In this document: piece after piece, positions 5,620-54,458 of the stretch
Layout of the letters: each line of letters starts with the position of its first letter
How positions within the stretch are numbered: the first letter of the stretch is position 1
From: Scleroderma bovista
Taxonomy: Eukaryota > Basidiomycota > Agaricomycetes > Boletales > Sclerodermataceae
DNA length: 64,000 nt
Direction of reading: 5' to 3'
NCBI GenBank assembly: GCA_037178675.1
Contig: JAYMGJ010000478.1
Coordinates: 35,899-99,898, forward strand
The notes under the pieces: model-generated
Seen by the model: the letters and a program-made list of their open reading frames with translations, nothing else
Databases searched by the model: none
What the model was told of the DNA's origin: nothing
Translations under genes and position numbers: made by a program

Positions 5620-8600
5620 CTAATACGAACACCGTGCATGTTCGTCCAGTCTCGCAATGAGCTCTTCCCGTTCTTCGCTCGTCTTTCGCACACTTTAACA
5701 CCAAGAAGTAATCAGTTAACGTCATTGCGAGGAAGTAAACTGGCAAGTAGGTACTACTTACAATGCTTGAGCAAAGACCGGCAGATGCGCAGGACTGCGA
5801 ATCATCCCAAGCTCGATGAGAGCGCGCTGGCGCGAGACAAGCCTTCCAGAGTCCATCTAACCTCAGCATACATTACCCCATTACAGATGTCAAGATACTC
5901 ACTGCTTGTCGGTGTCAATGGGTGCGTGGAGGTGGTGCCTCCGCTTCGGCGGCCAGTCTTCTTCGGAGGCCCTGGATCTACTCACAGGCCTCGATCGGAC
6001 CCCCGATTCCTTGCGTTTCCTCGTAGCAGCTTTCTTCTGTTTGTGCTTCTTGGTGGATGTCAGTAGAGTGATATCACGCCTTCCATCTTACCTACTCGGA
6101 GTGCATCACGCGAACGTTCTTCTTCGATGCGGCTGGGTTGAAGAATGTCATCGTTACGGTGGCTATACTTTACACCGATGGCGCTGAGGGTCTTCTGGAT
6201 GTCATTGTCTTCGGCGACATCGGGGGGTTCTACGATCAGGGTTGGAGATATACACGGGCTCTGAGAAGGACTTCTTACCATCGTCGAAAAGCAAAGTGCT
6301 CAGTCCTCGCAATTCCGCCTGTCGATGTAAAAGTATGCAATACCGTCAGTCGCATTGGGAGATGGTCTTACCTCCTCTTTCCCTCCCTTCAAATCGGCTT
6401 CGTGAACCCAGTCTTCAGGCTTTGATTTGCGTCCGCCACTTTTACCTTGCAGGTGAGCCAAAGCCCAATCGAGCTCGCTGATAGATGCGCTTTCAATCTG
6501 GAAAAACCCGTTGCCATCTCAAACGTATGTATATTGACACTCCCGCATACTCACAGCCATCTTGGTGGCAAGTGCGTCTTCATGAAGCCTGAATATATTT
6601 TTGATGCCAAAGAGTTCGCCCTGTCGTTTGGTATCACCCTGCACACCAGCAAAATATCTGTGCAGTATCAGCCTATGTAATCGCACGCCTGTACCATGGA
6701 CCAACCGCGTCTGAATGCTGGCTTGGTATCCAATAGCCATTTGTTGCTGTTTATACAGCTGACGCGCATAGATCAACTCTTCGATCGATCCGGCGCCTAA
6801 CAGCCTATACACAGAAACATCACGTGTCTGACCAAATCGGTAAGCTCTGTCCATAGCCTGCAAGTCATGCGCAGGATCTACACAGGCGGGCGCCGCCACG
6901 GTCCATCAGGACACTTTCTCTGCTGATTCTAGAAATACATACGTACTCCAATTAGGATCTGCCACAGGCCTTTTGATATTCAAATTGCAAGAATGAATTG
7001 CTGTGTGACCCACCGAAAATGACGACCTTGTTGGCTCCTGTCAAATTCAGGCCAGTGCCACCGGCAAGAGTGGATATTAAGAAGACAAAGATATCAGGAT
7101 CCCGATGAAACTTGTCAATCATGGGCATCCCTTTGACCCAAGTCAGTGAGCCGTCACACAGGGACATAGCAGCAGCAACACCTACTATCTGGCTGCTTCG
7201 TGGATCCATCCAACTTTAGAAAGTTATAATCTGGACAGAGCATGAACGTGAGAGCATAAACAGCAAAATGCACTACAAGCCATACGGTTCTTTCCAAGAT
7301 GAAACTCGAGCATCTCCAACAGCTTGACAGATTTGGTGAACAAGAGGACCTTGTTCGAGCGATCTTTTCGCCAATCTCTCAACAGCATATCCAGGACCTG
7401 CCAAGGGAGGCGGCGCTCAATGGAGTCCAAACAGCAGGTGTACAGACTCACTGCCCACTTTCCGCAGTATTGCGGCTGCATAATGGCGGTTCCATATTTT
7501 GGCACGGGCTGTCCTGTGAAAACGAATTCAGCGAGTTCGCGGTGCCGGAGCATCTGCATTTAACGTTAATACAGCACAGATAAAGCCCAATTGTAAAAGT
7601 ACTCGCCTGTTCAGGGGTATCACTCGGAGCTGTAAAATGCAACAAAGTAAGGGACAAGTTGCGAGCCATTCCAATAGAATAAATTACCTGGAAGGATTAG
7701 ACCCAGATGGTTCGAGATCTTGATAAGTATCGACATATGCTTCAGCACGTCCCCTTTCTCGAAAGAATGACAGCAGTCCTTGCGCCTGCAAGACGCCATC
7801 AGCCACATGCCATCTCTCATCCGCAGAAAACGTACTTCTTTTTTGATCCGCATGTACACAGCTCGTCTTTGTGGATCAAGTTCTCGACGGACGTCATGGA
7901 TAGGACGCGCTTATAAACTGCAATTTGTGTCGGGGTTAACGGGCAGAAGACGACTTCATCCGTTTTAGTAGGTAGCTGGAACACATTGGTTAGCAGAACT
8001 ATCGAAGATACCCTGCCACCAACCTGGTGTTTTATGATGTCCTTTGTTCTGATGCATAGCGGGATAAATATGGTTACCCAACCTTCGGGGACACTTAACG
8101 TACCGTCTCTTGAAGAAACGAGGAAGTAGTTTATCTCTGACGATGATCGCAACCGCCTTTCAAGTGGCTAGTAAAGGCCTTCAACCACGCCACCAGTAAA
8201 CTTGCTGCTTACCAGCGCTTTACTCCTCTCTTCCTCCGTCGCCTTGGTCGACTGTCCAATAGTCAAAGGTTTGACAACATACCCCTTCCACTGTTTAGTC
8301 GTCCCCAGCTTCCCAGGGTTTGTCCAATCGAGAATCGTCCAGAGCTCATTGTACGAGTTCTGAATAGCCGTGCCCGTCAGCCCGAACCGCCGCATGCAAG
8401 TGAACTGGTTGTATGCCTCTGTTATCTTCGACCGGGGGTTCTTGACGCGGTGTACTTCGTCGACGATGATGGTGGACCACGCGAGATCGTCGAGAAGGGC
8501 GATGTCCCTTCTTGCAAGATCGAATGTGGTGATCACTACGTGTGCTCAGCGGCGCGAAAAAAAAAAGATAAGAGGTGTGCATATCTACGCACCGACGTCC

Positions 8601-9845
8601 AGTCTTCCCATTGTGAAATCGGTCAAGACTTCTTCTCTCTGGCTCTGTGGCCCGATGTACAAGCCGGTCTCGAAATAGCCCCACTGTAACCCGCACGTCA
8701 GCAAAAGTGCTCGCAAGGGAAAAAATATGCATACTGTTTGGAACTCGCGTTCCCAGTTCTGTACGACAGACGCCGGCGCGATGATGAGACAGGTCGGCCA
8801 GACAGCATTCGCGGGGGGAAGCCTGCGCTGCTGGATCCACTCTTGACCATCCTGCAGTGTCGCCACATAGTTCCGCCTACGGTCCACATCTCGCTTATCA
8901 CCGTATTTCTTCATGATGGCGGACAGGAACGAAATCACTTGGATGGTTTTCCCTGGGCCATCATGTGAGTACAGTCAGCCCCAAGCTTTTGCTGAATAAC
9001 GCGCTTACCCTATGCAACAGGTGAATTGTTAGGGAATGCGATGGGAGGAGAGTGGACGCACAAGACCCATGTCATCGCCAAGAAGTCCTCCTCTGTCCTG
9101 GCCATACAGGTCCCAGAAAAAACGAACACCGTCTCGCTGGTACTCGCGCAAGTACGTGTTGATGGATGCAGGCACCATGATACGCTTCGAGCGGTCGAGA
9201 ACAAGGGGTCCCAGTGCGACCTGCCCGGCAGCGAGCGGGAAACCTGGGCGAGGCAGATATTCCTGTCAAGAAAAGGTCAGGTATGGAAACGACGGTTTGG
9301 ATGTATGTACCGGCTTGGCCACCAAGTCGGCTTCGTCTTCTGACTCTGTCTCCGAGGTTTCCTTGGCTTGTGAGCGCATGTCAGCACTTGGATAATGTTT
9401 AACTATCTCGTGCGTAGAACGTACCAACATTACGCGGCGTTGATTGGATGGGTTCGACGTCCGAGTCGGATTCCGTCTCGGAGTCATCTAGTAGGTGTGC
9501 AGACGTGGTGCGCCCATAACGAAACGACGCACCTTCTGCCTCTATCTTGACACGCTTAGAGGGTTCCAGGGCGCGGGGCGGTGACAGAGACTTGCGCTTG
9601 ACAGCCCTCACGTCCGACTCTGATTCGGTCTCTGAGTCGTCCACGATGACCATGGGTGCCACGGGTGTCTCATCATGCGGACGCGTCACAAACGTCAAGA
9701 GCGTTTTGGACACGGTGGGTTCGTCTGCGTGAATACTATGTTCGTCTGAGTCGTGATCCGAGTCGTCGAGGACGATATCTTGTTCGTCGTCCTCCGAGGC
9801 CGAATGGAGATCCAACTCATCTGCACAAGTCTCAATCACCGTCAT
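5620..9845 (-). CDS. ERCC6L2-like SNF2/Rad26-family DNA helicase/translocase
   Basis: This is an ATP-dependent DNA translocase of the Snf2 superfamily, nuclear, with a likely role in DNA repair or transcription-coupled processes. In order along the minus strand: an acidic Ser/Asp-rich N-terminus (9845-9400, repeated DDSETES blocks); INTYLREYQRDGVRFFW; the Walker A motif DDMGLGKT assembled across 9062-8952; IIAPASVVQNWERE; DEVHRVKNP as motif II; LTGTAIQN as motif III; then the C-terminal helicase lobe with STLAGGTGLNLT and DRAYRFGQTRDV, and RQLYKQQQMA plus GVQGDTKRQGELFGI further on. The GVQG...RGELFGI-type tail and the PGKLGTTKQW insert after motif III resemble ERCC6L2 rather than Rad26. More than ten introns of about 50-60 nt are inferred. 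The stop TAG is at 5622-5620. The start at 9845 is the first ATG of the acidic block, but an upstream start in the same open frame (to ~10380) cannot be excluded. Walker A depends on a 1-nt exon (see 9009). Confidence 0.88.
9009..9009 (-). other. Predicted one-nucleotide exon (G) in helicase motif I
   Basis: On the minus strand the exon ending at 9062 reads GAT GAC ATG GGT CTT, followed by a GTGCGT donor. Intron A (9061-9010, 52 nt) contains CCCTAAC and ends GCATAG. A single G at 9009 is followed by a GTAAGC donor. Intron B (9008-8953, 56 nt) contains GGCTGAC and ends CCCAG, and the next exon starts GG AAA ACC. Joined, this gives G-L-G-K-T in frame. Skipping the G shifts the frame, and the other nearby donor (after ATG G) would delete two residues of the ATP-binding loop. 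Confidence 0.7.
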
Positions 9846-10614
9846 TCGTCCGACGGTCACACCCGGGCGACTCACGAAAGAACTCGAGCAGGGGGTTGTG
9901 CTTGGTTCCGTGAGGCTGACGCGAACGTTCCGCTGTGGCCGTTCAACAACACGGGTCTCCACCAGCACGCGAGAAATAGGACTGACTTGCCAGCTTGGGA
10001 GACGACTTGCTGGTGTTGGTGTGTGCAGCGCGTCTATTACGCTGTTTGTGTGGAGAATGAGATAGGGGAGTGGGTCCCGGTTTTTTTCTGCCGTGTTTCT
10101 TTTCCTTCTTCTCATATACAAATGCACCGGAATTGAACTCTGGGTCTGAGTCCGGTTCTTTTCGCGCAGGTTTTCACCTCTCTGTGGACCAACGGCGCGA
10201 ACAAGGACGTACCGAGCGGTGCCGGTATGGAGGAGACATTTCCTAGGACGAGTTCCGATTTCTGGCGTTGCAAGTGCAAACAAGGACCTACGCTGGTTAT
10301 AGACAGACAGTCTTGGTTTGTTGGCTGTCGAGGCCATATTATCTACAGTACATGGACGAGGAGGACGAGGAGGACGGGACACGTGATCGCAAATAGTACG
10401 ATTTTTAACAACACAGGTGGACTACGACATGAAACATATAATAACACAGAACAACGGAGAGTGGGCACTGGGACGAACAACTAAGTGTTGGCTGTGACAT
10501 GTCTCGCGAGCGGGGTACGAAGGAAGAAAGGGACAGGGTAAGGGGTGCATAGCGGGGTAGCAGAATTACGTGCAAAAGGGATAACAGTGTCAGGCATGTA
10601 CATGGCAGCTGCGA

Positions 10615-11233
10615 TCAGTCATCGTCGTCATCTTGCACTGCATCCTCGCCGCTTTCCTTTCCAGACTTGGGCTGCTGGTGGGTGCATCAGCGCAGACGAA
10701 AGGGCATGCGGAAGGGGTGCGTACCGGAGCGGACATGGAAGCCTTTTCTTCCTCAGCACGTGCCTTGTCCTTGGCGGCCATTTCGACATACGGCTGGAGA
10801 GACGGGGTATCAGTGGGCAGGGGCAGCTCGTTGAACTCGACGACCAACCTTCCTCTCGTCGTCGTCGAGCTCTTTCCACTTGGCACCAAGAAGCTTGCCG
10901 ACCTCGCCTGGGGACATCCGGTGAACACCGCATGGACAGCGAAGACGAGGACGCTCACCGAAACCAGCATCTGGGTTTTCAGACTTGATTCGCTCTCTCC
11001 AGTCTTGGCTGAAGAACATGTAGGCAGAGAGGGCGCGCTTGGGACCGCCCTTGGCCTTGGATTTAGCGCCCTTTGCGGCCTTTGCCTCGCTCTTTTCGGC
11101 GGCCTTGCGCTGTGGACGAAGCAACGTGAGCAGTGTGTGCGTGGTGGGGGCAGGATGGGCATATGTGGTATGTATGGGTGGGGGTCAGGGGGCAGTTGGG
11201 TGCACGGACCTTTGGTTTGGCTTCCTTGGGCAT
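10615..11233 (-). CDS. NHP6: NHP6-type HMG-box non-histone chromatin protein
   Basis: This is a small nuclear architectural DNA-binding protein. Five exons give about 120 residues: MPKEAKPK; a Lys/Ala-rich arm, then [57 protein letters not shown]; and a QPKSGKESG tail ending in five Asp residues. The HMG box runs from PKRALSAY to about AEEE and has the usual intercalating and hydrophobic core residues (F, W, W, Y). Introns have good GT-AG ends (for example GTCCGT...CCACAG and GTACGC...CACCAG). The ATG at 11233-11231 is the first in frame and sits before the basic arm; the stop TGA is at 10617-10615. Length and architecture match NHP6A/B-like fungal HMGB proteins, but the acidic C-terminal run is longer than in yeast NHP6. 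Confidence 0.92.
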
Positions 11234-42571: not shown

Positions 42572-45500
42572 GTGTACAATGTACCAAACCCATCAGGATT
42601 CTACAAATCAACACAAATCGGAGCAACTCAGTTTGCCACGCTGTCCTTAATGCAACAGTAAAATCTTTTGACATACTTCTCCTAACTGAACCATGGTTTG
42701 GTTATATAGGCAATGACCAACGTGGCCCAGTGGCGCTAAGCAGCTGGTATCCCATCCTACCCCTTCAACCTGCCCCAGAAGACCTCACCCCGCGGACAAT
42801 GGCGTACTACAGACACAGAGATGACTTCCATGTCACGCTCCACTCAGACCTAGCGTCTGATGCCGACATACAAGTGCTACAAGTTGACCAGCCCCCGCAC
42901 CCCCCCACACTCTTAGTGAACGTGTACAACCAGCAGGCTGGAGACGACCGCAACAGCTGGTCCATAGACTGCCTCCGTAATGTCGCCCTCCCAGAGAACA
43001 TCCCTGTAGTCGTCTCCGGCGACTTCAACATGCACCACCCCCTTTGGGCCATCAATGAACCACACCCTGATCCCAGGGCCGAATCCCTCGTGGAGTGGCT
43101 GGTAGAAAAGCGCATGACCATGTGCAATGACAAGGGAACGCCCACCTTCCTGTCACACTGTGGCAGGGCCACGTCGGTCCTTGACCTCACATTCATTAAC
43201 AACGCCGCACGCACAGGCAACTCTGCTCTTGAGTGGAGGGTCGCACCCGAACTTGCCCATGGCTCCGACCACTACCCCCTGACGTGGATGATGGACTGGG
43301 GGGCAGTAGCGCTGGACAATATCACAGCTCAAAGGTTCTGAAAGACGACACGCCGAAGAAGTGGAAGGCTATGTATAAGTCAGAAGTTGACAGCCGCGCA
43401 TGGGTCTTTGGGGGTTTGCACGACGAAAGGCCCCCCACACAAACCCTGGACATTGCAACGCTAGAACTGCACAATGCCTTGCAGGCTGCCATGGAGGAAC
43501 ACATACCAAAGTGCAAAGACAGCATCCGGGTGCGCCCATGGTGGATGCCCGAACTGACCCGAACCTATGAATTCCTACGTGACCTGAGAAGGTCAGCACA
43601 AATATTTCTTGGCATACCTGATGAAGAGCATGCAGAGACTGTTGAAGAGCATGCAGAGACCCAGGCCCTGATCCAGAGGACCAAGAACAGACTGAAACGA
43701 CTGACGAAAGCAGCTAAAAGGAAGTGGATCAACGACGAGCTAGAAAAGGCAACACCAGATGACATATGGGCGTTCACCAGGTGGCCCAAAGGTATCTGCC
43801 AGTACCCCTCCCCCCCCATCAGCCCCCGACAGGGACTGCCTGCAGCAGTCTCGCATGAAGACAAGTGCAATGCCCTTCGCAGCGCTCTGTTCCAGCCTCC
43901 CCCACCCATCCATGTGGAACCCACTGACCTCGAACACAACCACCCCGACGACATGACCTGGGAACCTGTATCGTACACAGAGGTCCGTAGAGCAATATTC
44001 GCCCCGAACGAACATAAGGCCCCAGGACCCAGCCAAGTCAACTACATGGTCCTCCAGTGGGCGTGGGCAGCTGACCCTGTCCCCATCTACCTCTTGATCA
44101 GCCGCTGCGCAAATGTTGGATACCATCCCCAGATATGGAGGAAAACAGTAGCGGTAGCGCTACGCAAACCGAAGAAACCTGACTACTCTAACCCGCGCGC
44201 ATACAGACTCATACAACTAGAGGAATGCCTGGGCAAGGTCTTGGAATCAGTTGTTGCCCGACGCCTATCTCACATGATCCACGAACACAACATAGTCCCA
44301 GCCACACAGTTTGGTGGCTGCCCAGGCAGCTCAACAGTCGATGCCGTGCTCACGTTCACCCATGACATAGAGGCAGCCCGCAACCATGGACTGGTCACCA
44401 CCAGCCTAACAATAGACATCAAGGGATTCTTTGACTACGTCAACCACAACAAACTGACATCCATCATGCGCAGAAAACGGATCCCACTGCCCATGGTCAA
44501 ATGGGTCAACTTGTTCCTGTCTAACAGAGAGGCAGCAATTTGCCTCGACAGTCGTATATCAGACTCCAGACCAGTGGAGAATGGCATCCCGCAAGGATCA
44601 CCCATATCCCCTGCACTGTCAATCCTGTATGCATCCCCAGTCTACGAAGAGTTCCAAAACCGACTAGCTACGAGATACGTCCACCAGGCGCCACCCGCTA
44701 CCAGACTCACCCCCACCACGCTAGTCGGCTACATTGACGACGTCAATATTTACACCTCCTCGACCAGCCTATTACAGAACGTAGTGGCCCTACGTGCCGA
44801 CTTCATAGCAATACTACACATCCTACACGCCCTAGGTCTCTCGATTGACTTCATCAAGTGCGCGCTCACGCACTTCACAAGGCAACACAATGTCGACTTT
44901 CCCGACATCACCCTCCCCAGCCCAGAAGGAGATGTCGTCATAACCCATAGCAACACTATGAAATGGCTCGGTATCGTGTTCGATTCCAAACTTCTCTTCA
45001 ACGAACATGTAAAGGCAGCCACTAACAAAGCAGAAAACATCGCAAAGGGCCTAACCATGCTCGGCAACACAGTCCGTGGCTTACACCAACGCCTCCTCCG
45101 AACTATCTATGGCGCATGCATATGTAGCGTCATGACGTATGCCAGCCCAGTCTGGTGGGACGGTAAGAAAAAACATGCGAACAAACTCACCAGGGTACAG
45201 AACACCTGCCTCCGCCACATCTGTGCGGCCTTCCGCACCACCCCAATCCATGCACTAGAAATAGATAGTGCAACGCCACCAGTCCACCTAGTCCTTGATC
45301 GCCTTAGCAACAATGCCGCCTCAAGAATTCACAAACTAGCTCACACCAGTCCCATCTACCTCAGACTCCCCCAGGTCTGGTGTGGCTACAATACCGCCTA
45401 CCCCGCACCCGCACTCCCACCAGACAGGTTTCACCCAAGGAGCAGAAAACCCCCCAAAACGACATGCCTGACTAGGCTCGCATCACGCTCCTCACCCACT

Positions 45501-46583
45501 ATCCCCCACATAGATATATTCACCATCTCCCCATGGTCCCCCACCGTAGCCACCTTCTCACCTCGCCTTGCAATCAGGAGTACGAACTATGAAGATGACA
45601 AAAAGAAAGCTGCTGAAGCCCACATCAAATATGTCCGTAGCTTCCAGTCAGACCCTCTCCACATATTAGCCTACTCCGACGGCTCGCTACGCAGAGACTC
45701 GGACACAGGTCAACAAAGCGCAGGAGCTGGGTGGATAGGATACCATGGCTTCCACGACATCTTCCAAGGCTCCAAACCCTTGGGACCGCACATGGAAATT
45801 TACGATGCAGAAGCCATTGCTATCAATGCTGCGTTGAAAGCCACTGTCGACTATGCGACGGAGCACGATACCACACACATCCACATCTTCGCTGACAACC
45901 AGGCCGCCGTCCAGACCGCATTCGACATCGTACCAGGCTCCTCCCAACACATCGACCTCCACACCTGCTCCCTCATCATTTCATTCCTCAAATCCTCAAA
46001 CCAGCATCATATTGAAATCGCATGGACACCCGGTCACAAAAACATTGTTGGCAATGAACGAGCGGATGCCCTAGTGAAAGCGGCGACAGAAATCGCAGTA
46101 GATGCCCCACCGGTCTCCCTCTCTCACGAGAAAGCCCAGTCACGCCAACACCTCATTACGTCCTGGACCACAGAGTGGCACAAACAACTCCAACGCCCAA
46201 GCGCGTTCCTCCAGGCAAACAGATTTGCGCCAGCCCTGAAACCTCGTGAACACTTCACCCATACACCCCGCACCACATATGGCCGCCTCATTCAGTGCCG
46301 CACAGGCCACACCTTCATGGGCGAATACTACAACAAACATGTCCCCACAGAAGATCGGTCCTGCCCATGCGGGGAACCACTACAATCGCGCGACCATATC
46401 CTCGCAACCTGCCCTACCTACGAAAACCATCGCCAGTTCCTCAAAAAAGCCTCAGAGGATCTCGTCACATCAGACATCCTCAGCACCAAAGACGGCGTAG
46501 ATGCGCTCATAAACTTCCTCCGAGCCACCAACGCATTCAAGAAACAACGACCTCCTGCCCCACCTGAAGTACCTCCAGTGTAG
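42568..46583 (+). pseudogene. LINE ORF2: endonuclease, reverse transcriptase, RNase H (one frameshift)
   Basis: ATG at 42568 opens an APE-type endonuclease (ILQINTNRS, LLLTEPWFG, VVVSGDFNMHHPLW, HGSDHYPL) that ends in a stop at 43339-43341. The reverse transcriptase continues in another frame from about 43325 (DDTPKKWKAMYKSEV), so one indel lies near 43320-43338. RT shows HKAPGPSQVNY, GIPQGSPISPAL and the catalytic YIDDVNIY at about 44730. RNase H shows YSDGS, DAEAIAI, FADNQAA and GNERADAL, the four acidic positions. A C-terminal CPCGEPLQSRDHILATC cluster precedes the stop at 46583. Each domain looks intact on its own; only the junction is broken. Confidence 0.85.
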
Positions 46584-49437: not shown

Positions 49438-49677
49438 CCTGCTCAAGAAGCTGCCAGAGAAGCAGACTTCAAAAGGGTTGAGCAGACATACACCGCCTTC
49501 CGTTGCTACAACCTCGTTGTCGACACCCTTGCAGACCTCTTCCTCGACAACCCCCGCTATTACGTCGAGGCCGAACCCGCCCTCCCGCTCACCCGCTGCC
49601 GTACGTTTCGCACTTCCCGTCTCTACCCCGCATGTCCCCGAGGCGCCCCCTACTCTCGCTACCACCCGTACTAGAAG
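49438..49677 (+). other. Short upstream ORF and candidate intron in the chromovirus leader
   Basis: An ATG at 49438 opens about 78 codons (MPAQEAAREADFKRVEQTYT...) ending at a TAG just before the gag ATG. The 3' part (GTACGTTTCG...GTACTAG) has intron-like ends, but splicing there does not bring the ORF into the gag frame by my reading. It could be a regulatory upstream ORF or an alternative N-terminus. Confidence 0.35.
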
Positions 49678-50685
49678 ATGGATCAGCAACATCACGATCC
49701 CCTTCAGAATATTCTCCTTCAGTTCGCGCAGGGCCAACTCGACCTGCAAAACAGTATCCAGGCCCTTGCCGATGCGCAGCAGGGCCTTGCTCCCGTGGCC
49801 CCCGGGGCACCTGCGGTGCCGCCTAGAGCCCCTAAAAAGATTGTTGCTGAACCTGGGAATTACGATGGCTCCCCCCAGGCCTTCAAAGTTTGGTGGAGCA
49901 AAATGAAGTTGTGGGTCATGATGAACCAGAGGAGCGGTCTCCTAACAAGGAATAGTGAGATCATGGCAGCCATCCTCTCCAGGTTCGAAGGACCTAAAGC
50001 TGGGCGTTGGGCCCAGGTAAAGTTGGACTACTACCTTGGTCCAGGGGTCGAGTACCCAACTTGGGATGAACTTCAGGCCGAAATAACTAGCTTTTTCGTG
50101 CCAGGCAACAACGCCGACTGGGCCAGGTCCCAGTTGCTAAAGCTACGCCAAGGCCCCCGTCAACGAGTGGACGATTTCCTTGCAACTTTTGAGTCGCTCA
50201 AAGTCAAGAGTGGCTGTCCCGACGCCTACGCTAGGGACTTGCTCGAAAGGGCGGTACAGAGGCAGGTCCTCCAACAGGTGTACCTCCTGGCAAAGGATCG
50301 CGCCACCTATGCTGAGCTGGCCACCTCGGTCAGAACCGTTGGAAGGGCTCAGGAGCTCTTCCTGATTAATACGCAGGGCGGTGCCCGCTATTATCAGCAG
50401 GGGAGCGGCTCCTCCTCCTATGGAGTAATGCCGGGCGCTGGCGCCCCCATGGATATCGGCGCTGCTCAGCAGCAAAACCAGCAACGGAGTAAAGGGCTCC
50501 AATGCTATAACTGCCAGGGATTTGGCCACATCGCTCGCGAATGTAGCCAACCACGTCGCCCACGTCGAGGGCAACCCCAGCAGACTTGGGCTGTACAGCC
50601 CCAACCTGACGACGAACGCGTCAACGCCGTTCACAGCATGTCCTTCTCCGAAATGAGGGACTATTTCAAAAATTTAAAAGATTAG
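49678..50685 (+). CDS. Chromovirus Gag
   Basis: The 335-residue protein starts MDQQHHDPLQNILLQF. The retrotransposon gag domain is seen in GNYDGSPQAFKVWWSKMKLW, GRWAQVKLDYYLGPG, YPTWDELQAEITSFF and RQRVDDFLATFESL, with PMDIGA before a CCHC knuckle CYNCQGFGHIAREC. Gag forms the virus-like particle and binds element RNA. The stop at 50685 is 14 nt before the pol ATG in a different frame, so Pol is not made by simple readthrough. Confidence 0.93.
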   Translation: MDQQHHDPLQNILLQFAQGQLDLQNSIQALADAQQGLAPVAPGAPAVPPRAPKKIVAEPGNYDGSPQAFKVWWSKMKLWVMMNQRSGLLTRNSEIMAAILSRFEGPKAGRWAQVKLDYYLGPGVEYPTWDELQAEITSFFVPGNNADWARSQLLKLRQGPRQRVDDFLATFESLKVKSGCPDAYARDLLERAVQRQVLQQVYLLAKDRATYAELATSVRTVGRAQELFLINTQGGARYYQQGSGSSSYGVMPGAGAPMDIGAAQQQNQQRSKGLQCYNCQGFGHIARECSQPRRPRRGQPQQTWAVQPQPDDERVNAVHSMSFSEMRDYFKNLKD

Positions 50686-50699
50686 AGAGTGAGGATACA

Positions 50700-53600
50700 A
50701 TGGGCACCCTCGCTCTCGAATCTGAGTTGGACAGTGCAGTAAGGATCTTGGACTATCGTCTCTCTTGTGCTAAAACTCCAGAAGCACAGGATATTTATAA
50801 GTACTGCATATCTCTTCTTTCTCGTAAAATACAGAAAACCCATAAAAAATCACCTTCTGTAGTTTCCCCTGTTTCTGTCTCCTTCAACAAGTACTCTGTC
50901 TTGTCGGTAGATAGTATGGACTGTAATAACTCATCTGTTGAACCCTCTAAGGGAGTCCCTGCAAAGGGCTCGGCACCGGAGGTTAAATCAAGTGTGCTTA
51001 ATTCCCTGTTGAATACTGCTGTTTCTTCTCCTTTGGCATCTAAGGAACTGGAAAGCCCCGCCGGAACCGAAGAAGTTTCTTTCTTGGACTTACGGAGGTC
51101 CCTCACCTTGGAACGTGAAGTGACGGTACCCGTCCGCATTCGCAGACCCCTTAACGTTATTGAAGTAGGTGCCCTGCTAGACAGTGGCACTACTGGGTGT
51201 TTTATTGACAAGAGCTGGGCTCTTGATAGACGGTTGCGGTTATCTAAGCTGGTAAAGCCTGTTCCAGTGCTTAACGTAGATGGCACGAGGAACCAGGAAG
51301 GCGATATCACGCACTATGTATTACTTACAGTTGGTATTGGGAACCACACTGAAAAGCTTTGGTGTGCAGTCACTTGCCTAGGAAAGGTTCCCCTTATCCT
51401 TGGCCACACCTGGCTTAGAAAGCATAATCCCGATATTGATTGGGTAACCGGACAGGTTAGTTTAACTAGGTGTCCTCCTGAGTGCAAGTCACTCTTGGAG
51501 ACGCGCTTCGCTAAATTATTACATCAGAACGAATCTCAGGAAACCTGGATTCAGGCTTTAAAGGCCCACGAGTCAAAGGTTGCTATCGATGAGACAACCC
51601 TCGAAGAGGCCCAGAAGCTTGTACCCCGAGAGTACTGGGAGTATTTAGATGTCTTCTCGAAGAAGTCATCCGAATGCATGCCGCTTAGGAAGCCATGGGA
51701 CCATGGCATAGATCTCAGGGAAGAGTTCCCACCTAAGAAAGGGCGTTTGATACCCCTGTCAGTGGACGAACAAAAGGAAGTTGAGGACTTTGTTGACGAT
51801 CAGCTTGCGAAAGGCTATATTCGCCCGTCCATTTCCCCTCAAACTTCCCCTGTCTTCTTTGTTCCTAAAAAAGACGGCAAGAAGCGCATGGTTCAGGACT
51901 ATCGATATTTAAATGAATGGACCATTAAAAATAACTACCCGCTACCCTTGATCAGTCAGCTTGTTGACAAGCTGAAAGGATGTAAACTCTTCACGAAGAT
52001 GGATCTTTGCTGGGGATATAACAATGTCCATATCAAGGAAGGCGACAAGTGGAAAGCTGTGTTTGTAACGCACAAAGGGGCTTTTGAGCCCGTTGTTATG
52101 TATTTCGGTCTGTGTAATTCACCCGCAACATTCCAAAAAATGATGAATGAAATCTTCCACAACATGTCGGATGTTTGCGTGGTGTATATTGACGACCTCA
52201 TGATATTTACAAATACGGACGATCAAGAAAAGCATGACAGGATCGTGCTTGAAGTCTTAAAGCATTTACGTGATAATGACCTGTTTGTCAAACCCGAGAA
52301 GTGTCGCTTCCGCGTTACCGAAGTCGACTTCCTTGGAATGGTAGTCTCACGTGACGGGATAAAGATGGACCCTGAAAAGGTTAATGCTATTTTGAAGTGG
52401 CCTGAGCCAATGAATGTCAAACAGGTTCGAGCATTCCTAGGCCTCAGCAACTTCTATAGACGCTTTATTAAGGACTATGCGGTCATGGCTAGGCCATTGA
52501 TGGACTTAACGTGTAAAGATGTTGTTTTTCACTTCGGAGATAAGGAGCATGCTGCATTTGAAGCCTTGAAGGCTGCGTTTACTCGTGCACCGGTACTTCA
52601 GTACCCTGACCAGGACCGTGAATTCTGCCTCGAAACTGATGCGTCTGAGTTCGCTGTCGGGGGAGTGATATCCGTTAAGTGCGAGGACGGCGAATTCAGA
52701 CCAGTAGCGTACATGTTGCACTCTATGACTCCACCGGAATGCAACTATCCCATTCACGATAAAGAAATGCTGGCCATCATAAAAGCAACAGAGGCCTGGC
52801 GCCATTATCTCGAGGCCACTCCTTATACCTTTGAGATCTACACGGACCATCATAACTTAACGTACTTCACGAAGTCGCAGAATCTCTCCAAGCGACAGGC
52901 GCGCTGGCAAATGTGGATGACGCACTTCAACTACTCGTTAATCTATAAAAAGGGAACCCAGATGCATGTTGCAGACCCGCTTAGTAGGCAATCAGACTAT
53001 TACGTGTCTAGTTCCGAAGATAACAAGGATCAAACCTTGCTAAACCCCGTATCTATTAAGTCAATCGACGTCACTGATCAGACTTACGAGGAGCGTCAGT
53101 TGCTAGTCACGGACTTTCATGACACACCTGTCGCAGGACATAAGGGTGTCAAAGCTACGTTTAATGCGCTCAGGAAGCATTATTCCTGGAAAGGAATAAA
53201 GGAGCAAATCCAAACCTATGTAAAACACTGTCAAAAGTGTCAGCAGTCAAAGGTTTCAAACCAGAAGACTTCTGGAAGCCTCCTCCCTCTCCCTGTCCCA
53301 GAAAGACCGTGGCTTGACGTCACAATGGACTTTACCGAGATGCCGGAATCCCTCGGTTATAACTATATATTAGTGGTCGTCGATCGGTTCTCCAAAGAGG
53401 TGGTCTTTGTACCATGCACTAAGGAGGAAACTGCCCTCTCAACTGCTGAACTGTTTAGAGATCATGTTTGGTGCCAACATGGACTTCCTAGCACCATGAT
53501 ATCTGACCGTGGATCGGTCTTTGTGAGCAACTTCCTGGGGGAGTTGTATAGACTTTTAGGCATAAAGCGCAAGATGTCTACTGCCTTTCACCCACAAACT

Positions 53601-54458
53601 GACGGACAAATGGAACGGTTGAACCGCGAAATCAACCAGTACCTTCGGACCTATGTTAGTGATCGTCAAGGCGATTGGGCTAAGTGGATCAAGATTGCCC
53701 AATTTGTCTGGAACAACACGGTCTCGGAGGTCACTACCAATTCCCCGTTTGGAATTACCCAGAGTTATTCCCCGCGCATGGGTGTAGAGCCAGTGCAGAC
53801 AGTAGCCCCAGCGGCCAAGGACTTCGCTGCCATATTTAACAAAGTCGTTGAATCTTCTGAGAAGGCTAAACACAACATGAAGCTTCAGGCGGATAAGCAC
53901 AGAAATCCCGCCCCGAACTATACTCTCGGACAGCAAGTCTGGCTTTCAACGGACAACCTTCATATGTTAAATTGCGCTTCTAAGAAGCTCACAGAAAAGT
54001 GGATCGGTCCCTATGAGGTCACTCGAGTAACCCCAAACGTGGTCGAGCTTAAGCTCCCGAAAACTCTTCGGATTCACCCGGTAGTGAATGTCTCTCGAGT
54101 CAAGCCTTATCTAGGTCCACTTCCCGGACAACCTGTCTCCCGGCCTGGCCCGGTACTTGTCTCTGAAGAACGCAATGAAGAGTACGAAGTAGACTATATT
54201 GTAGCGTCCCATATTTATAGACGCCAACTCCAGTACTTGGTGCATTGGAAAGGGTACGAAGAACACGAGAGAACGTGGGAACCCTTGTCAAATCTGAAGA
54301 ATTCACCTCTGGTAGTCGAGCATTTTTATAAGGAAAATCCTTCTGCCCCTCGAAAGCTTCGCATGGTGCAGTCAGACTTCAACTCGTTATTTACTCGGAT
54401 CCCCGAGAATCTTACTGTTTGCGAACCCACCTTTTGCAGTCTGGAATCCTGCACCTAA
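50700..54458 (+). CDS. Chromovirus Pol polyprotein (PR-RT-RNase H-IN-chromodomain)
   Basis: The 1,252-residue polyprotein starts at ATG 50700. The aspartic protease has ALLDSGTTGCFID. RT has DYRYLNEWTIKNNYPLP, FTKMDLCWGYNN and the catalytic YIDDLMIF. RNase H has LETDASEFAVGG and IYTDHHNL. Integrase has the HHCC zinc site (AGHKGVKATFNAL... HCQKCQQSK) and the DDE triad in DVTMDFTEMPES, MISDRGSVFVSNF and AFHPQTDGQMERLN. The C-terminal chromodomain is YEVDYIVASHIYRRQLQY, LVHWKGYEEHERTWEP. The chromodomain usually directs integration to chromatin with methylated H3K9. No internal stop is present, so the element may be active. Gag and Pol are separate ORFs spaced by 14 nt. Confidence 0.95.
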   Translation: MGTLALESELDSAVRILDYRLSCAKTPEAQDIYKYCISLLSRKIQKTHKKSPSVVSPVSVSFNKYSVLSVDSMDCNNSSVEPSKGVPAKGSAPEVKSSVLNSLLNTAVSSPLASKELESPAGTEEVSFLDLRRSLTLEREVTVPVRIRRPLNVIEVGALLDSGTTGCFIDKSWALDRRLRLSKLVKPVPVLNVDGTRNQEGDITHYVLLTVGIGNHTEKLWCAVTCLGKVPLILGHTWLRKHNPDIDWVTGQVSLTRCPPECKSLLETRFAKLLHQNESQETWIQALKAHESKVAIDETTLEEAQKLVPREYWEYLDVFSKKSSECMPLRKPWDHGIDLREEFPPKKGRLIPLSVDEQKEVEDFVDDQLAKGYIRPSISPQTSPVFFVPKKDGKKRMVQDYRYLNEWTIKNNYPLPLISQLVDKLKGCKLFTKMDLCWGYNNVHIKEGDKWKAVFVTHKGAFEPVVMYFGLCNSPATFQKMMNEIFHNMSDVCVVYIDDLMIFTNTDDQEKHDRIVLEVLKHLRDNDLFVKPEKCRFRVTEVDFLGMVVSRDGIKMDPEKVNAILKWPEPMNVKQVRAFLGLSNFYRRFIKDYAVMARPLMDLTCKDVVFHFGDKEHAAFEALKAAFTRAPVLQYPDQDREFCLETDASEFAVGGVISVKCEDGEFRPVAYMLHSMTPPECNYPIHDKEMLAIIKATEAWRHYLEATPYTFEIYTDHHNLTYFTKSQNLSKRQARWQMWMTHFNYSLIYKKGTQMHVADPLSRQSDYYVSSSEDNKDQTLLNPVSIKSIDVTDQTYEERQLLVTDFHDTPVAGHKGVKATFNALRKHYSWKGIKEQIQTYVKHCQKCQQSKVSNQKTSGSLLPLPVPERPWLDVTMDFTEMPESLGYNYILVVVDRFSKEVVFVPCTKEETALSTAELFRDHVWCQHGLPSTMISDRGSVFVSNFLGELYRLLGIKRKMSTAFHPQTDGQMERLNREINQYLRTYVSDRQGDWAKWIKIAQFVWNNTVSEVTTNSPFGITQSYSPRMGVEPVQTVAPAAKDFAAIFNKVVESSEKAKHNMKLQADKHRNPAPNYTLGQQVWLSTDNLHMLNCASKKLTEKWIGPYEVTRVTPNVVELKLPKTLRIHPVVNVSRVKPYLGPLPGQPVSRPGPVLVSEERNEEYEVDYIVASHIYRRQLQYLVHWKGYEEHERTWEPLSNLKNSPLVVEHFYKENPSAPRKLRMVQSDFNSLFTRIPENLTVCEPTFCSLESCT

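Follow-up and report, generated by a model that had tools for sequence, protein, structure and literature searches.

How can a gene specify an intact ATP-binding loop when no single canonical intron joins the two exons that carry the loop without destroying its motif? The question is raised by a gene for a RAD26-/ERCC6L2-like SNF2 ATPase on the minus strand of a 64,000-nucleotide (nt) stretch of contig JAYMGJ010000478.1 of the Boletales fungus Scleroderma bovista (the window), in which the codons for the G-L-G-K-T of the Walker A motif are interrupted from 9061 to 8953. The answer proposed here is that G9009, a single base inside this interval, is very probably a constitutive one-nucleotide exon between two canonical introns. 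The parts in question are as follows, with slashes marking exon-intron boundaries.

6300..10337, minus strand: RAD26-/ERCC6L2-like SNF2 ATPase gene, a hand-built model of 21 exons and 20 introns backed by homologues and Pfam
9062..9262, minus strand: upstream exon, 201 nt, ending GGC GAT GAC ATG GGT CTT (G-D-D-M-G-L), phase 0
9010..9061, minus strand: putative intron 1, 52 nt, GTGCGT...CATAG, donor score 5.3, acceptor score 4.0
9028..9034, minus strand: branch-point-like CCCTAAC of intron 1
9009, minus strand: putative exon of one nucleotide (G), which opens the second Gly codon in G-L-G-K-T (TAG/G/GTAAGC, 9012-9003)
8953..9008, minus strand: putative intron 2, 56 nt, GTAAGC...CCCAG, donor score 5.2, acceptor score 2.4
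8974..8980, minus strand: branch-point-like GGCTGAC of intron 2
8735..8952, minus strand: downstream exon, 218 nt, beginning GG AAA ACC (rest of Gly, then Lys and Thr)
9052..9057, minus strand: decoy donor GTCCAC (from 9057), score -5.8, which with the acceptor at 8953 gives MGLVRKT
9061..9066, minus strand: decoy donor GTCTTG (from 9066), score -5.3, which with the acceptor at 8953 gives MGKT

The need for G9009 was established by a splice enumeration that was bounded by the GGC codon at 9079 and the conserved FLSAIM and allowed one or two GT/GC-AG introns, each of at least 30 nt. It returned 46 in-frame, stop-free solutions, just one of which contains GLGKT, namely the removal of 9061-9010 and 9008-8953 with retention of G9009, and every in-frame single-intron solution with canonical ends loses the motif. 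The direct join of 9062 to 8952, which an earlier note on this DNA had said would shift the frame, does so and reads GLGKPSK followed by a stop; removal of intron 1 alone brings a stop 26 residues past GDDM, and removal of intron 2 alone a stop after GLVRPLSSHRIP. Because retention of either intron or skipping of the G leads to an early stop, a working ATPase would be made only by full two-step splicing. At the site itself, the acceptor AG and the donor GT are both complete and separated by exactly one base, and the flanking introns show nothing unusual in their length, splice sites or branch points. The positions, lengths, donors, acceptors and both branch-point-like sequences that the earlier note had given for these introns match the sequence, and its claim that G-L-G-K-T can be assembled only by including G9009 is borne out for canonical splicing. 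Its remark that only one other donor lies in range was inexact, because besides the GT at 9066 the GT at 9057 also gives an in-frame product.

Donor and acceptor matrices were trained on the gene's 18 other introns, a small set, and those introns were themselves scored leave-one-out. On this scale the proposed donors are the two best of the GT/GC donors scored in the interval. The 18 other introns span -1.2 to 9.8 for donors and -6.0 to 8.6 for acceptors, which takes in all the proposed sites, whereas both decoy donors fall below the donor range. The CTAAC and CTGAC elements sit about 20 nt upstream of their acceptors, and a loose branch-point match (YTNAY) is present in 16 of the 18 other introns. 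The 52 and 56 nt of the proposed introns fit the lengths of those introns, whereas a single intron of 109 nt is an outlier because they average 54.4 nt (standard deviation (SD) 4.9, maximum 69). Furthermore, the interior of the 109-nt interval was subjected to 20,000 dinucleotide shuffles, in which AGGGT with at least 45 nt on either side arose 298 times, joined in 54 shuffles by donor and acceptor sites of acceptable quality and a loose branch point on both sides. The inner AGGGT with its splice signals is thus more than chance.

The gene around the site appears otherwise intact. The hand model, which starts at about 10337 and leaves out the 3' end beyond approximately 6300, translates to an open protein across 20 introns of 48-69 nt (19 GT-AG and 1 GC-AG), and its conserved part carries the SNF2-related domain (PF00176, 3.5e-60) followed by the helicase C domain (PF00271, 9.7e-26). 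The upstream exon alone matches the start of the SNF2-related domain at 21.9 bits, slightly below the curated cut-off. The closest named relatives listed include a Scleroderma citrinum protein (85% identity over 83% of the queried domain) and a Pisolithus albus protein (84% identity). Where sources give specific names to the listed matches, these are RAD26-like SNF2 or DNA excision repair protein ERCC-6-like 2, many others being hypothetical or P-loop proteins, and these names agree with the ERCC6L2-like label that the earlier note had proposed, so that the gene probably belongs to this group. The nearest solved structure is ERCC-6 (9.3e-87), whose aligned motif reads GDEMGLGKTIQ. The 221-nt region around the site occurs once in the 51.8-Mb assembly, and a search of this genome found no second copy of the locus. 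Other features of the gene include a GC-AG intron (CAG/GCGAGT) at 7554-7606, short exons of 25 nt (8024-8048) and 23 nt (7607-7629), and a 12-nt exon (6947-6958) inside D-P-N-W-N, all on the minus strand.

If the Walker A codons are split in this way in related fungi, gene models built by automated callers would be expected to fail at this place. Three protein searches, from which the best 120 of 2750, 5564 and 5003 matches were taken, gave 156 different proteins, which were grouped by taxonomic order, three of the assignments being looked up. The motif is intact in 77 of the proteins (in one of them as GMGKT); another 49 are altered exactly at the site, 24 begin immediately downstream of it and 6 begin at MGLGKT, with the following distribution.

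Boletales (24 proteins): 3 intact, 10 altered, 10 starting after the site, 1 starting at MGLGKT
Agaricales (68): 34 intact, 29 altered, 4 starting after, 1 starting at MGLGKT
Polyporales (26): 8 intact, 10 altered, 7 starting after, 1 starting at MGLGKT
Russulales (17): 12 intact, 0 altered, 2 starting after, 3 starting at MGLGKT
Hymenochaetales (7): 7 intact, 0 altered, 0 starting after, 0 starting at MGLGKT
Other orders (5): 4 intact, 0 altered, 1 starting after, 0 starting at MGLGKT
lgn/jgi sequences (9): 9 intact, 0 altered, 0 starting after, 0 starting at MGLGKT

Within the first 120 proteins, an insertion or deletion (indel) lies within six residues of the site in 44 of the 102 models that span it (0.43), and 18 proteins start after the site; 13 models begin at the very Met that follows. 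As a control, 15 other junctions inside the conserved domain were compared, and 13 of them show indel rates of 0.02-0.10, the remaining two, at 0.20, being the ends of the 12-nt exon. The junctions of this exon are often faulty in relatives too, indels being present in 23 of the 116 models that span them. High rates (0.67, 0.51 and 0.36) occur as well at three junctions that lie outside the conserved domain, which is put down to divergence. A model start just after Walker A was considered as a diagnostic sign in its own right and dropped, since 2 of the 17 Russulales models do likewise.

The failures differ between close relatives. The five Pisolithus models show four outcomes (GLGKT, VRKT twice, MGKT, and a jump to KYGD), and the two decoy donors are represented directly, MGLVRKT being printed for Pisolithus microcarpus, Pisolithus sp. 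B1 and Boletus reticuloceps, and MGKT for Pisolithus tinctorius. Moreover, the form of the altered residues can be predicted. A gene caller faced with CTN/GTNNGT, and with a downstream exon that begins at the second Gly base, could keep the frame by splicing from the GT that lies four bases further in, which would give L-V-x-K-T with x encoded by N-G-N; the GLV-x-KT form occurs in 9 of the 156 models, and their x, without exception R, C, G or S, matches the expectation. Conversely, where extra residues are drawn from the end of an intron, the residue before GKT should be encoded by N-Y-A, the acceptor being YAG, and all 12 models with extra residues are compatible with YAG/GN (10 of 10 if two ambiguous cases are set aside), against a background of 0.449. 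Both sides of the same one-base gap thus appear to be visible in the altered models of several species. A read-through model from Daedaleopsis (P0071) has 40 residues between GL and KT, or 118 nt if read straight; it is compatible with an inner AGGGT, and as a peptide is no proof of one.

A transcript-like sequence bears on the same point. P0010 is a 1056-residue open reading frame (ORF) from contigs of at most 5179 nt. Aligned with P0031, the gene model of Laccaria bicolor, it is identical at 924 of the 930 positions without a gap, and it reads MGLGKTIQ where P0031 reads MGL-TIQ. Given the twenty or so introns of the gene studied here, P0010 is taken for a complementary DNA (cDNA) contig, in keeping with its lgn source, which we take to be an assembly of public sequence reads. 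This suggests that splicing supplies the Gly-Lys that the Laccaria gene model could not, and a one-nucleotide exon and a shifted donor would fit P0010 alike. P0031 is also faulty around the 25-nt exon (8024-8048) when set against P0010.

From the sequence, the frame, the uniqueness of the solution, the quality of the splice sites and the recurrent failure of gene models at this place, we strongly infer that the messenger RNA (mRNA) is spliced at G9009. Short fungal introns are recognised across the intron. One base would be too small for the factors of the upstream acceptor and those of the downstream donor together, and the two introns would therefore be removed one after the other. If intron 1 leaves before intron 2, the remainder reads CTTG/GTAAGC, an ordinary phase-1 intron whose donor scores 6.0 as compared to 5.2 beforehand, and its removal would yield CTT GGG AAA ACC (L-G-K-T); the reverse order would also leave a usable site. 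The one-nucleotide exon predicts a cDNA with GGTCTT followed by GGGAAAACC. The joined string GACATGGGTCTTGGGAAAACCATC would be expected in cDNA under this reading, and equally under a shifted donor, whereas the joins GGTCTTGGAAAACC, GTGCGGAAAACC and ATGGGGAAAACC would be at odds with a one-nucleotide exon. Spliced aligners would be likely to miss an exon of this size.

Several observations weigh against a one-nucleotide exon. The acceptor at 8992 scores 5.7, above both proposed acceptors, and the GC donor at 9004 reaches 3.7, although GLGKT is lost from every solution that uses either of them. The 77 intact models, that of Pisolithus albus included, may reflect a plain intron in those species or better annotation; the nine intact lgn/jgi ORFs, by contrast, speak for the exon, though weakly when taken alone since long open ORFs are a biased sample. 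The evidence from relatives consists of proteins, from which the same frame gap can be deduced and a shared middle G only surmised; searches of genome contigs and of IMG/VR viral contigs for the DNA of relatives matched only distant prokaryotic or viral-contig relatives. Finally, a donor shifted by one base (CTTG/TGCGT) would yield an identical cDNA, as CTTG followed by GGAAAACC reads L-G-K-T. This shifted donor is one form of an explanation that keeps a single 109-nt intron and adds a non-standard step, the other relying on the AAAA run, where a slip or a -1 frameshift would have the last A of CTT GGA AAA read a second time and likewise give L-G-K-T. Both forms call for an exceptional mechanism and an intron of double length at a place where two canonical introns of normal length exist, and taken together they are improbable. 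A cDNA carrying GGTCTTGGGAAAACC would be at odds with the A-run form. Against that form, in Laccaria the GL/TIQ of the gene model would imply ...AAG/ACN, with no A run, yet GLGKT appears there; the shifted donor is untouched by the Laccaria case.

It is very improbable that the assembly is short of one base (for example in the GGG or AAAA run at 8952), with a single 109-nt intron (9061-8953) and an accidental inner AGGGT. The acceptor does abut GGGAAAA, and one base missing there would explain the frame, but this reading is disfavoured because the same one-base gap appears, judged from proteins, in independently sequenced orthologues of three orders; the intron would also lie about 11 SD from the mean of the others and would contain an acceptor, donor and branch points in a combination seldom produced by shuffling. 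Use of a decoy donor by the cell, which would make a helicase with an altered ATP loop, is exceedingly improbable: MGLVRKT and MGKT are both in frame and both printed as gene models of relatives, but the decoy donors score far below those of real introns, their products lose the Gly before KT or shorten the loop of an otherwise conserved ATPase, and relatives print several different decoys for one site. A fixed order of removal like that of a stwintron, with intron 1 leaving before an older outer intron (CTTG/GTAAGC...CAG), is possible though unlikely. Here the G would be the last base of the upstream exon, severed by a later intron gain, so that this scenario overlaps the one-nucleotide exon and predicts the same mRNA, differing in order and origin. 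The plain phase-1 intron with its slightly better donor that remains after removal of intron 1 favours it, as do the models from Marasmius oreades and Panaeolus cyanescens (P0068 and P0043), which, read straight and by hand arithmetic, imply one intron each, of 54 and 51 nt respectively, that starts in phase 1, so that plain genes may exist. Those two models could equally represent two-intron genes with intron 2 retained in the model, however, and neither intron at the S. bovista site splits a splice-site element of the other, the defining trait of stwintrons, while the reverse order is usable too. The one-nucleotide exon is thus supported as the sole canonical-splicing solution that restores Walker A. 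The alternatives that the earlier note had itself raised fare differently, in that strict recursive splicing fails on the base between AG and GT, assembly error is disfavoured by the gap deduced in orthologues, and the non-canonical donor TT/G TG, unlikely as it is, would fit the frame and give the same cDNA.

The earlier note had named APC11 of Arabidopsis as the documented example, which is correct as far as it goes; the list also includes CYP621A of Fusarium (PMC12940212) and mitochondrial cox1 and rnl (PMC5436844, PMC12308204). APC11 has a constitutive one-nucleotide exon, base A, in an interval of 422 nt, proven by cDNA and reporter constructs (PMC4674806). As proposed here, that exon lies between introns with GT/AG ends, is essential for the frame and was missed by annotation; the differences are the base (A as opposed to G), the short fungal introns on both sides of G9009, and the fact that the exon in S. 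bovista is deduced from sequence. The CYP621A exon is backed by 18 SRA reads, and the paper describes it as the second example and the first in a fungal gene (PMC12940212). It shares with G9009 the fungal setting, the AGGGT and a Gly codon in a conserved motif, and all transcripts built from gene models but one were faulty at that motif; the interval is more than twice the usual intron length there and about twice here. CYP621A is an ascomycete P450 in which the middle Gly base is concerned, whereas G9009 is the first Gly base in a basidiomycete SNF2 ATPase, with a frame gap that appears to extend to three orders. Placozoan cox1 has a one-nucleotide exon between self-splicing introns (PMC5436844), and in the rnl genes of Ophiostoma and Ceratocystis one retained A separates two introns of group II (PMC12308204); these mitochondrial cases likewise keep one base between two introns, which are of group I or II whereas those described here would be spliceosomal. 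Stwintrons of the [D1,2] type are also two adjacent fungal introns removed in two steps (PMC12403724; see also PMC5639578 and PMC9024468), but the definition, in which one intron interrupts the donor, branch point or acceptor of the other, does not describe G9009, where both introns have whole sites separated by one base. At ratchet points, acceptor and donor nearly touch and removal is stepwise (PMC8605326); a strict recursive site has AG directly followed by GT, whereas here one base is kept between them (AG G GT).

A search confined to the open-access literature (PMC), with only some of the papers it listed opened, found no one-nucleotide exon in a basidiomycete or in an SNF2 gene. G9009 would be another spliceosomal one-nucleotide exon, the first basidiomycete case found in that literature, and may be unusually widespread. 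There is an even chance that the exon is old and shared, with both introns, and the one base that separates them, present in the Walker A codon of the gene in Boletales, Agaricales and Polyporales alike. Intron 1 may be the later gain, placed one base upstream of an older intron; an origin of the Fusarium type, in which one exon base is lost and a cryptic AGGGT comes to the rescue (PMC12940212), would fit equally well.

One-nucleotide exons mark the lower limit of what the spliceosome can keep, and the known spliceosomal cases in the cited reports are APC11 (PMC4674806) and CYP621A (PMC12940212), to which plant microexon surveys may add more. An exon of this kind in the ATP-binding loop of a DNA-repair-type ATPase, if common to three mushroom orders, would mean that such exons can persist for long, and would offer many species for testing two-step splicing. 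No older or more widespread spliceosomal one-nucleotide exon would then be known, many mushroom genomes, a large share of them all, would have the gene misannotated, and loss of intron 1 would be enough for a lineage to lose the exon. Whatever its age, this is a site where many public gene models print a protein without its catalytic motif.

The arrangement does not appear to be general among SNF2 genes of this genome. A PF00176 search of the assembly gave 44 matches, loci were fetched for 30, and five SNF2 genes could be read by eye at Walker A, all of them lacking a one-base exon there; plain introns lie in or next to the motif in four (L002, L009, L012 and L018) and none does in L019. The plain introns of those four genes sit at different places in or next to the Walker A codons, as if this were a frequent intron site.

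Elsewhere in the window, an HMG-box ORF (10810-11184, minus strand) adjoins the helicase gene; its match stops within the box, where an intron probably interrupts it. On the plus strand, a retroelement ORF occupies 50610-54458; its domains are reverse transcriptase, RNase H, integrase and chromo, and it is adjoined by a gag-like ORF with a zinc knuckle (49675-50685, plus strand). A second, different retroelement ORF lies at 43233-46583 on the plus strand, with reverse transcriptase and RNase H as the sole domains matched.
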